Assembly (NCBI GenBank): GCA_030431775.1
Contig: JAUIHW010000002.1
Span: 1 to 64,000 of the forward strand
Direction: 5' to 3'
Origin: Gammaproteobacteria bacterium
GTDB taxonomy: Bacteria; Pseudomonadota; Gammaproteobacteria; Pseudomonadales; JAUIET01
Length of the DNA stretch: 64,000 nucleotides
In this document: in pieces, positions 53,224 through 56,415 of the stretch
Position numbering within the stretch: the stretch's first letter is position 1
Layout: the number at the start of each line of letters is the position of its first letter
Translations under genes and position numbers: made by a program
The notes under the pieces: model-generated
Seen by the model: the letters and a program-made list of their open reading frames with translations, nothing else
Databases searched by the model: none
Told to the model about the DNA's origin: nothing

Positions 53224-53667
53224 TTAGATTCGACACTCGCGGGGCAAAAATTTGTTCAACGCCGCATCACTGATAGCACAGGTCCAGGCAACGCCTTGAT
53301 TAACATCATAAGCTGGTGTCATACCCAGGGATGCTGCGTCCAGCCCGGTATCACCAGTGCCTTGCACCGCAAGCGTAATAACGCCATTGGCGCCGACAGT
53401 GACACTTTCAACAAAATCGCTGTTAATATCGGCCGCCGCTCCTAAACCGACATCGGAATTGCTGCCGCAGTTGGCGGTCCCACCCTCGGCCAGTATGCAT
53501 TCACTGACAGCGGTTTTAGCGGCTCCGGCAAAGCCAATCACTTCAGCCATTTTAGAGCGGGCCGTATAGCTCTGGTAGTAAGGCACGGCCGTGGATGCCA
53601 GTATCCCGATTATCGCAATCACAATCATCAATTCGATCAGGGTGAAGCCAGTTTGCTTGCTATTCAT
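53224..53667 (-). CDS. pilA: type IV pilin PilA (second, downstream copy)
   Basis: A 147-residue major pilin with leader MNSKQTG and mature start [20 protein letters not shown], hence a canonical prepilin site and E5. YQSYTARSKMAEVIGFA follows, and cysteines at the C-terminus (AWTCAI and RECRI) form the likely D-region disulfide. It shares the central [18 protein letters not shown] block with the upstream pilA, so the two arose by duplication. The spacer upstream holds a terminator and no promoter that I can see, so expression may depend on read-through. Confidence 0.95.
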   Translation of the reverse strand: MNSKQTGFTLIELMIVIAIIGILASTAVPYYQSYTARSKMAEVIGFAGAAKTAVSECILAEGGTANCGSNSDVGLGAAADINSDFVESVTVGANGVITLAVQGTGDTGLDAASLGMTPAYDVNQGVAWTCAISDAALNKFLPRECRI

Positions 53668-53696
53668 CCGTAAACCCTCGTTCTGAGAAGTTGGCT

Positions 53697-53725
53697 AAAA
53701 AAAAGGGAGCCTGAGCTCCCTTTTT
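53697..53725 (-). terminator. intrinsic terminator between the tandem pilA genes
   Basis: GGGAGC-CTGA-GCTCCC with eight A on the left (a T8 tract on the minus strand) gives a classic rho-independent terminator for the upstream pilA transcript. A T-tract on the other side makes it bidirectional. It lies 48 bp past the upstream pilA stop and ahead of the downstream copy. Confidence 0.9.
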
Positions 53726-53772
53726 CCCCTTATGCCAGCCCCGCAGGGCTGGCTCAGGTCATGGCGAGCCTA

Positions 53773-54216
53773 TTATGCTCGACACTCACGCGGCATGTAC
53801 TTGTTCAGTGCAGCTGCACTTACGGCACAAGCCCAATCGACACCAGCGGACTGGTCGTACGTTGGGGTCATAGTGATGCTACCGGCGTCCAGGTCAGCTT
53901 GGGCTGTACCCTGGATAGCGATAGTGATCAGGCCATTTGCACCAACGGTCACACTTTCTACGTAATCGCTGGTGATGTCAGCGGCGGCACCCAAACCAAC
54001 GTCTCCGTTGCTGCCGCAGTTGGCTGTACCGCCTTCGGCCAGAATACACTCACTGACCGCACCTTTAGCAGCGGCGGCAAAGCCAACCACTTCACTCATT
54101 TTGGCGCGAATGGTGTAGTCCTGATAAGCCGGCAGCGCGACTGCCGCCAGAATGCCGATAATGGCAACCACGATCATCAGTTCGATAAGGGTAAAACCCT
54201 GTTGTGCTTTCTTCAT
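53773..54216 (-). CDS. pilA: type IV pilin PilA (first, upstream copy)
   Basis: A 147-residue major pilin with leader MKKAQQG and mature start [41 protein letters not shown] and a C-terminal cysteine pair (DWACAV, RECRA) complete the pattern. It is expressed from a sigma-54 promoter at 54313-54328 and its mRNA probably ends at the terminator at 53697-53725. AAGGAG lies nine bases before the ATG. It is probably the main pilus subunit because it is promoter-proximal. Confidence 0.96.
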
Positions 54217-54312
54217 TTCAGAAGTCTCCTTCGGTTAAGAATGTTTAAAATGCCTCTGTCTTACAAGCTTAGACCTTGTGAGACAGCTTGCAAATTTGTG
54301 CGCATTAAAAAT

Positions 54313-54328
54313 AGCAATTGCTGTGCCA
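54313..54328 (-). promoter_or_regulatory. pilA: sigma-54 promoter of pilA
   Basis: On the minus strand the sequence is TGGCACAGCAATTGCT. The GG and GC doublets are 10 bp apart, matching the -24/-12 consensus (TGGCAC-N5-TTGCW). It predicts a start near 54302 and an 85-nt leader. In Pseudomonas, pilA is sigma-54 and PilR dependent, so the same control is likely. Confidence 0.9.
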
Positions 54329-54437
54329 ACAATGCGAAACCCACAAACAATGTTACTAAGTTACTGATTAGCACGGCTTTTGTACAATTTGCAAACAAAT
54401 CGATGAATTTTCAACCGGCCGGATGCCGATTGCTTTG

Positions 54438-54473
54438 TGTGTCAGAAGCTGACAAATTTTGTCACTTTGTGAC
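54438..54473. promoter_or_regulatory. cluster of TGTC/GACA half-sites upstream of the pilA promoter (putative PilR sites)
   Basis: Three overlapping dyads (GTCAGAAGCTGAC, GACAAATTTTGTC and GTCACTTTGTGAC) lie 139-171 bp upstream of the predicted pilA start. TGTC-type half-sites are known PilR-binding elements in Pseudomonas. The distance fits a sigma-54 upstream activating sequence. The region also lies upstream of pilB on the other strand. Confidence 0.55.
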
Positions 54474-54558
54474 CGCTGGCGATCTAACAAGACCATAACA
54501 GTACGCCAGGGAAGTTTACAAATAGAACACTATAAAGAAGAGAAACCCTGAGTTTGCT

Positions 54559-54567
54559 TGCTATACT
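54559..54567 (+). promoter_or_regulatory. pilB: extended -10 promoter candidate for pilBCD
   Basis: The plus strand has TGCTATACT, i.e. TG-n-TATACT, an extended -10 element, about 127 bp upstream of the pilB ATG. The -35 region is poor, as is common for extended -10 promoters. The gap 54217-54693 contains no other gene, only the divergent control elements. Confidence 0.45.
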
Positions 54568-54693: not shown

Positions 54694-56415
54694 ATGAATG
54701 CTCCCAATACAGTTCGCTTAAGCGGTTTGGCTTTACGCCTGGTGGATGATGGCATACTGGATGAAGAACCGGCCAAGCAGGCAACGTTGGAAGCGCAGCA
54801 AAGCAACCGACCGTTCGTCAGCTGTGTTGTCGAACAAGGTCTGGCTGACAGCCGGGTAATTGCAAAAGCCGCCAGCGAAGAATTTGGCTCCCCGCTGTTT
54901 GACCTCGAGGCTATGAACCGTGAATTCATGCCGGCAAGCCTGGTCGACAGCAAATTGGTACAGAAGCATCATACGCTGCCGCTCTACAAGCGCGGAAACC
55001 GCCTGTTTATTGCGGTCTCTGATCCCACCAACCTCAAAGCCATTGACGAAATCAAGTTTCACACCGGCCTGTCCGTTGAGGCCGTTCTGGTCGAAGACCA
55101 GCTGTTGTCGCAAGCCATTACCCGTTTTCTTGAACAGGAGGATTCAAACTTTGGATCTTCTTTGGGCGACCTTGATGATGCGGGGCTTGAAGACCTGGAT
55201 GTCGAGGCGGTTGACACTGATGACAAAGATGGTGGCGGTACTTCCGATGAGGACGAAACCCCAATTGTGCGCTTCGTCAACAAAGTTCTGGTAGACGCGA
55301 TAAAAACCGGTGCATCGGACATCCATTTCGAACCCTATGAAAAAACCTACAGGGTACGTTTTCGCACCGACGGTATTCTGCATACGGTTACCTCGCCACC
55401 TCAAAACTTGGGCGGGCGGCTTGCGGCGCGCCTGAAGGTGATGTCACAGATGGACATTTCTGAAAGACGCGTGCCACAGGATGGTCGCATTAAAATGAAG
55501 CTGTCCAAAAAGCGCGCGATCGATTTTCGTGTGAATACTTTGCCGACTCTGTTTGGCGAAAAGATTGTGCTGCGTATTCTGGACCCCACATCGGCACAAA
55601 TGGGCATCGACGCTCTGGGTTATGAGCCAGAGCAGAAGCAAATGTACATGGACGCTCTGCACCAACCCCAAGGCATGGTGCTGGTAACTGGCCCTACTGG
55701 TAGCGGTAAAACCGTGTCACTTTATACCGGGCTGAATATTCTGAACACAGCAGAACGCAATATATCCACGGCGGAAGACCCGGTGGAGATCAACCTTGAG
55801 GGCATTAATCAGGTCAATGTGAACGCCAAGGTTGGCTTGAATTTCGCCGAAGCCTTGCGCTCCTTTCTGCGTCAGGACCCCGATGTGATCATGGTCGGTG
55901 AGATTCGCGATCTTGAAACCGCAGAAATCGCTATTAAGGCGGCGCAAACCGGTCATATGGTGATGTCCACGCTGCACACTAATAGCGCTGCTGAAACGGT
56001 CACCCGATTATTGAATATGGGTGTTCCCCCATTCAACCTGGCTACGTCCGTCAGCCTGATCATCGCCCAGCGATTGGCTCGCCGCCTGTGTGCCACCTGT
56101 GCCGAGCCGGCTGATCTGCCCCCGGAAGTTCTGCTCAAAGAAGGTTTTCGTGAGGACCAACTCGGTGAACTGAACATCATGAAACCGGTGGGTTGTGACA
56201 AATGTAACAATGGTTATAAGGGGCGTGTCGGAATCTATGAAGTAGTTCGCTTAACGCCGGAGCTATCACGTATTATTATGGAAGAAGGCAATTCCATCAT
56301 GATCGACCAGCAGGCTCGCAAAGAAGGCTTCGACGACCTGCGCCGCAGCGCACTGAAGAAAGCAGCGCAGGGTCTGACCAGCCTTGAAGAAGTGAACCGA
56401 GTAACGAAGGATTAA
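54694..56415 (+). CDS. pilB: type IV pilus assembly ATPase PilB
   Basis: A 573-residue hexameric ATPase that drives pilus extension. An N-terminal GspE-N-like domain (residues ~1-150) is followed by the ATPase core with Walker A at ~332-340 (TGPTGSGKT), an Asp box and Walker B (DPDVIMVGEIRDLETA), then a His box. The tetracysteine zinc motif is intact (CATCAEP and CDKCNNGYKG). The ATG is not preceded by a clear ribosome binding site. It is the first gene of pilB-pilC-pilD-coaE. Confidence 0.97.
   Translation: MNAPNTVRLSGLALRLVDDGILDEEPAKQATLEAQQSNRPFVSCVVEQGLADSRVIAKAASEEFGSPLFDLEAMNREFMPASLVDSKLVQKHHTLPLYKRGNRLFIAVSDPTNLKAIDEIKFHTGLSVEAVLVEDQLLSQAITRFLEQEDSNFGSSLGDLDDAGLEDLDVEAVDTDDKDGGGTSDEDETPIVRFVNKVLVDAIKTGASDIHFEPYEKTYRVRFRTDGILHTVTSPPQNLGGRLAARLKVMSQMDISERRVPQDGRIKMKLSKKRAIDFRVNTLPTLFGEKIVLRILDPTSAQMGIDALGYEPEQKQMYMDALHQPQGMVLVTGPTGSGKTVSLYTGLNILNTAERNISTAEDPVEINLEGINQVNVNAKVGLNFAEALRSFLRQDPDVIMVGEIRDLETAEIAIKAAQTGHMVMSTLHTNSAAETVTRLLNMGVPPFNLATSVSLIIAQRLARRLCATCAEPADLPPEVLLKEGFREDQLGELNIMKPVGCDKCNNGYKGRVGIYEVVRLTPELSRIIMEEGNSIMIDQQARKEGFDDLRRSALKKAAQGLTSLEEVNRVTKD

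Follow-up and report, generated by a model that had tools for sequence, protein, structure and literature searches.

Sequence features of a probable PilS-PilR/sigma-54 pilin switch and of the pilin operator that it shares with many relatives

Promoters of the sigma-54 type are transcribed in an rpoN-dependent manner, with a start about 12 bp after the GC. Jin et al. (1994) reportedly described four (C/G)TGTC motifs in tandem upstream of the Pseudomonas aeruginosa pilA gene, an arrangement with which the TGNC half-sites discussed below, spaced at 10-bp steps, would be consistent. The pilA system of P. aeruginosa comprises a major pilin, a sigma-54 promoter, an NtrC-type PilR, a six-TM PilS and a divergent pilB (PMC6058289, in excerpt), and the locus analysed here resembles it in all of these. 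The pilE gene of commensal Neisseria (RpoN/IHF/Nps-Npa) has the same order of activator site, IHF site and sigma-54 promoter and also depends on a two-component system (PMC6528607, in excerpt), but it belongs to another bacterial class and another regulator pair, and the likeness rests on the plan, not on the binding sequence. A remote enhancer, a loop and IHF are likewise found at promoters of the NtrC/glnA type (PMC3224663, in excerpt), although activator and operator are different there. Among the literature matches listed, no title or beginning of an abstract names a TGACR-N5-YGTCA operator, a statement that concerns those matches and makes no claim of absence from print. The control region described here is very probably an ordinary PilS-PilR/sigma-54 pilin switch of the standard system, with PilR as the presumed binder. 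As a single locus it is ordinary, and the kind of system is already known. The operator grammar and its phasing are interesting by-products: the site and the loop spacing of such switches can be read from relatives, and the probable PilR operator is defined sharply and in a form that can be carried over to many unstudied bacteria.

The stretch of DNA analysed (the window) is 64 kb in length and includes a type IV pilus cluster (Table 1), in which the tandem genes pilA1 and pilA2 lie on the minus strand, divergent from pilB. The frames after pilB are taken, by likeness of sequence, to be pilC, pilD and coaE. The family of this genome is represented in the data set by two genomes, its own and that of a sister species; PilB is up to 75% identical to that of the nearest named relatives, which include a Spongiibacteraceae genome, Oceanicoccus and Halieaceae. 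A PilS (6TM_PilS PF25323, HisKA, HATPase) adjoins a PilR (receiver, Sigma54_activat, HTH_8) on contig C87, the pilus cluster being on C89. The initial annotation had proposed a sigma-54 pilA promoter with a possible PilR enhancer, and this still appears to be the best reading given the pilin and pilB genes, the PilS/PilR pair and a core that is conserved before pilA in most relatives.

Table 1. Positions in the window of the pilA1 control elements and the neighbouring genes.
Feature	Position	Strand	Basis or remark
pilA2	53224-53667	-	Second pilin gene; PF00114 match
pilA1	53773-54216	-	Type IV pilin, 147 aa, target gene of the promoter; PF00114, PF07963 (N-methyl motif) and TIGR02532 matches
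Predicted pilA1 transcription start	54301	-	5' leader of ~85 nt; deduced from a conserved pyrimidine-purine step
Sigma-54 promoter TGGCACAGCAATTGCT	54313-54328	-	Exact TGGCAC-N5-TTGCT match
-12 element TTGCT	54313-54317	-	Part of TGGCACAGCAATTGCT
-24 element TGGCAC	54323-54328	-	Part of TGGCACAGCAATTGCT
IHF-like site AATCAGTAACTTA	54357-54369	-	Differs from WATCAAN4TTR at one base; its centre is 35 bp upstream of the -24 T
Weak fourth half-site	54433	-	Its G is the next 10-bp step; G in 58/83 held-out loci
Promoter-side half-site TGAC(A)	54440-54444	-	10 bp from the TGTC of the core; completes dyad 54440-54454
Core operator TGACAAATTTTGTCA	54450-54464	.	Conserved palindrome TGACR-N5-YGTCA; predicted PilR dimer site
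Upstream half-site GGTCAC	54469-54474	-	Completes third dyad 54460-54474; in some discovery loci and the sister
Extended -10 TGCTATACT	54559-54567	+	Possible divergent sigma-70 pilB promoter; 127 bp before pilB
pilB	54694-56415	+	Pilus extension ATPase; TIGR02538 above its cut-off

The promoter had been described as a near-perfect -24/-12 site, and it is indeed the sole zero-mismatch match to TGGCAC-N5-TTGCT in the 64 kb, fitting GG-N10-GC within TGGCAYR-N4-TTGCW. Matches with up to two mismatches (28 in the window) do not exceed those in shuffled sequence (31.1), so that only the exact site stands out. Genome-wide, TGGCAYN5TTGCW occurs 13 times, against 4 for the reversed pattern. The predicted start follows from a pyrimidine-purine step 26/27 bases past the -24 T that is kept across 142 loci, and this agrees with the start of about 54301 that had been assumed earlier.

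Half-sites of the TGTC/GACA type form a chain 139-173 bp upstream of the predicted start. The chain contains the dyads TGTC-N7-GACA (54440-54454), GACA-N5-TGTC (54451-54463) and TGTC-N7-GACC (54460-54474), the second forming a core whose centre is 156 bp from the start and 129 bp from the -24 T. The compound pattern GACA-N5-TGTC-N7-GACA, with 12 fixed bases for which arithmetic predicts about 0.01 exact matches in 64 kb, has one zero-mismatch match; again only this exact match stands out, since there are 3 matches at up to two mismatches and 4.74 in shuffles. Wording used for P. aeruginosa calls TGT-N11-AGA (NifA-like) and a nearby GTCT hallmarks (PMC6058289, in excerpt); these were not taken as defining here. 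Between 54301 and 54560, literal TGT-N11-AGA has no match, TGT-N11-ACA has two on each strand, GTCT occurs once (54493, minus strand, outside the array) and literal (C/G)TGTC once (54439, plus strand), the TGNC half-sites at 10-bp steps being present. Unlike in P. aeruginosa, conservation here is dominated by a 15-bp palindrome that is extended on one side, and its centre lies 129 bp from the -24 T as compared with 80-83 bp in 8 of the 9 loci of the family nearest to the Pseudomonas PilB query (f20).

Conservation was first counted in a discovery set. This started from 80 pilB loci, of which 14 were dropped before counting (3 whose upstream sequence was too short, 10 lacking a divergent pilin frame, and L082, which has an atypical-looking frame and a best sigma-54 score of 7); the window and the sister were added, giving 68. 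A sigma-54 site scoring at least 9/11 within 180 bp of pilA was found in 64 of these (shuffles 4.15, maximum 7). Exclusion of the four loci without such a site (L041, L059, L064, L077) and of a duplicate (L017) left 63, which were scanned for TGTC and GACA in all orientations with gaps of 0-31. The sole outlier was GACA-N5-TGTC, present in 29/63 loci (shuffles 0.23, maximum 1), followed by TGTC-N6-TGTC (9), GACA-N16-GACA (6) and TGTC-N7-GACA (4), i.e. steps of 10, 20 and 11 bp. Alignment of the 29 loci in the pilA sense yielded (C/G)TGACAAAAWTTGTCA(C/G)TnnnTGnC-N7-G. The pattern TGACR-N5-YGTCA is found upstream of pilA in exact form in 42/63 loci (shuffle mean 0.08) and with up to one mismatch in 59/63 (shuffle mean 1.33, maximum 5). 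The pattern had been refined on these loci themselves and was therefore tested on a held-out set.

For the held-out set, a Pseudomonas PilB was compared with 390 genomes of the same order, and the 145 pilB loci that matched it best were taken. Removal of 2 that were too short, 23 without a divergent pilin frame and 15 sharing too many 12-mers left 105, which are held out in the sense of not being near-identical to other loci, kinship with discovery loci being possible. The sigma-54 site, by the same definition, is present in 91 of the 105 (shuffles 5.20, maximum 9). Within these 91 the operator occurs with up to one mismatch in 83 (shuffle mean 1.97, maximum 5) and exactly in 60 (shuffles 0.13, maximum 1); over all 105 loci the former count is 90. 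Apart from 5, gaps from 0 to 12 are each found in at most 6 loci. Gaps of 13, 14 and 15 occur in 12, 9 and 18 loci; that of 15 is one 10-bp step further, and those of 13 and 14 are unaccounted for. Symmetric covariation is seen at columns 3/9 of the palindrome (83/146 against 67.4 permuted; 0/2000 permutations as high). None is seen at two of the other three symmetric pairs, and at the third, columns 5/7, symmetry falls below that of the permutations. Three loci (L194, L200, L314) carry the operator form TGACC-N5-GGTCA, with both halves altered jointly, as for a dimer site.

If the established biology applies to PilR as the binder, to its phosphorylation and oligomerisation, to IHF binding and to the loop contact, the palindrome TGACAAATTTTGTCA, some 156 bp upstream of the predicted start of pilA1, would be occupied by phosphorylated PilR dimers, and PilR would spread promoter-ward along the half-sites that follow one another every 10 bp on the same side of the helix. 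The intervening DNA would then loop, probably bent by IHF at about -60, and the AAA+ domain of PilR would touch the sigma-54 RNA polymerase on the -24/-12 site, opening the promoter.

It is improbable that the palindrome, while a genuine activator site of the sigma-54 promoter, is bound by some other enhancer-binding protein or a second regulator. The genome does encode 8 strong Sigma54_activat proteins, and two near-complete genomes (G278 and G407, 99-100% complete) keep an exact operator with no PilR match at 1e-110 and no sigma-54 site of at least 9, although the missing PilR is perhaps a threshold effect, since genus-mates score 1e-118 to 1e-124. Against another activator stands the distribution of the operator over the 13 TGGCAYN5TTGCW sites of the genome: it is found at that of pilA only, without mismatch, and each of the other 12 differs from it by 2 mismatches or more. 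Some of these 12 presumably precede glnA-like or flagellar-like frames, judging by likeness of the first residues, and a sigma-54 site before a glnA-like frame (L117) is without the operator. In addition, PilS/PilR control of pilA has been reported in P. aeruginosa and many pilus-bearing bacteria (PMC6058289, in excerpt).

The 17-bp form STGACRN5YGTCAS is found at 7 places in the genome, close to the 6 of a reversed-pattern control, and just that of pilA adjoins an 11-of-11 sigma-54 site. The other 6 lie in long open frames, and two of them have a 9-of-11 site 30-260 bp away. In the sister genome there are 9 places (control 8), one of them that of pilA and the other 8 without a site of at least 9. 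A wider operator regulon is thus not seen in the window's own genome, where the extra 17-bp matches are about as many as in the control and without 11-of-11 sites; this suggests that the strict operator serves pilA alone.

Co-occurrence of PilR and operator points, suggestively, in the direction of PilR. The genome has one PilR match at E <= 1e-110, as do 229/390 genomes of the order at that threshold; at E <= 1e-100 a match was found in 47/50 discovery genomes, the search having covered 50 of the 72 intended. Of the 105 held-out loci, 85 have the operator and 12 do not where PilR is present, as against 5 and 3 where it is absent (Fisher p = 0.086). As this is not significant, co-occurrence was rejected as proof of the link. 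Three near-complete genomes (G055, G431 and G190; 97-99%) have neither PilR match nor operator, three less complete ones (G140, G111 and G072; 79-89%) have the operator without a PilR match, and the genome of L047 (2.1 Mb, completeness not given) has an exact operator and no PilR match at 1e-100.

The array had initially been parsed as three overlapping dyads, and all three are present in the window, the third imperfectly (GACC for GACA). That they are three equivalent TGTC/GACA dyads with one dimer on each is highly improbable. The middle and promoter-side dyads are without mismatch here, but of the two kinds only the middle palindrome is conserved: TGTC-N7-GACA is found in 4/63 discovery loci (still above the shuffle mean of 0.08) compared with the 29/63 of GACA-N5-TGTC. 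In held-out loci the promoter-side element is kept as TGNC rather than GACA (G20 in 66/83, C22 in 58/83 and G30 in 58/83), and columns -12 to -7 on the upstream side carry at most 0.10 bits. From these column counts the array is better described as a palindrome followed, on the promoter side, by TGNC-like elements at intervals of 10 bp, and the outer TGTC-N7-GACA dyads were rejected as conserved binding units on the 4/63 count and the held-out columns. The sister species, moreover, keeps the core and the upstream half-site and has lost the promoter-side one. Chance clustering of half-sites beside a promoter that alone matters deserves almost no credence, for although TGTC and GACA are short and common and near misses abound at 2 mismatches, the core recurs at one spacing in 83/91 held-out loci against a shuffle mean of 1.97, which bears out the earlier impression that the chain is more regular than chance would make it.

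Between operator and promoter lies an IHF-like site, and the sister has one at 36 bp. Such sites (up to one mismatch) occur in 25/59 discovery loci (6.67 in shuffles, maximum 12) and, with kinship uncorrected, in 25/81 held-out loci (10.95 in shuffles, maximum 16), leaving 56/81 without one. In 15 of the 34 held-out matches the centre is 34-36 bp upstream of the -24 T, as in the window, but 13 of these have the orientation opposite to the window's. A positional IHF signal across all 142 loci was rejected, no column from -29 to -42 exceeding 0.12 bits.

The distance from operator centre to -24 T ranges from 52 to 215 across the 142 loci and is periodic, with a best period of 11.1 bp (R 0.449). 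Relatedness among loci is controlled only roughly in these statistics: with weights by similarity group R was 0.466, the highest of 1000 null values being 0.298, and a test that moved each of the 22 families of held-out loci as one unit gave R 0.51 at 11.0 bp, with p = 0.0015. Within families, differences in distance have their peak at 10-12 and troughs at 6-7 and 17-19. The best period is 11.15 in the held-out loci alone and 10.95 for 40 collapsed family states (0/2000 nulls as high), and a bootstrap over families spans 10.8-11.7. A helical phase of 10.5 bp fits less well than 11. The period is nevertheless poorly resolved, because unique distances alone gave no significance and the discovery loci, taken by themselves, favour 12.35 bp (R 0.512, as against 0.395 at 11.0). 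At 129, the window's own distance departs from the mean phase by about 2 bp.

Distance differences thus tend towards about 11 bp, which, within the limits of this poorly resolved period, would match the prediction for a torsionally constrained loop. For lac loops in E. coli, helical repeats of 11.60, 11.08 and, without HU, 10.95 have been fitted (PMC1762422, in excerpt), and a value of about 11 is given elsewhere (PMC8501960, in excerpt). We lean slightly towards an order-wide pilin operator grammar of TGACR-N5-YGTCA plus promoter-side half-sites at 10 bp, in which the distance to the sigma-54 site evolves in whole turns of about 11 bp, a repeat that has been measured for supercoiled DNA within cells. 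If this is true, natural variation in spacing would be a record of the twist of the activating loop in living cells. A natural set of promoters whose enhancer spacings have apparently been selected in whole helical turns would allow the helical phasing of sigma-54 enhancers to be tested on sequence data.

On the pilB side of the intergenic region, the extended -10 is shared by the window and the sister (L094) and absent from six other loci compared. A motif of this kind upstream of pilB occurs in 6/63 discovery loci (shuffle mean 1.0, maximum 3), and a conserved sigma-70 pilB promoter was rejected on this count. In the window the operator lies between this extended -10 and the pilA promoter, so PilR could influence pilB as well. 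The plus strand also has an open frame of 245 aa (53761-54498), antisense to pilA1 and the array, which is probably spurious. Four genomes of family f7 (L276, L289, L297, L311) have pilB with no divergent pilin frame found and no PilR match at 1e-110, and this lineage may have rewired pilin control.

PilB matches the MshEN domain (PF05157), a c-di-GMP-binding type, within its frame at 54694-56415. The two pilins are identical at 107/147 residues, and their genes are separated by a strong terminator-like hairpin at about 53697-53727, which is missing from the list of a simple hairpin scan; the fold of 53685-53745 has an energy of -27.2 kcal/mol (z -3.3). Given this hairpin between the tandem genes, PilA2 may be a pilin made at a low level by read-through.
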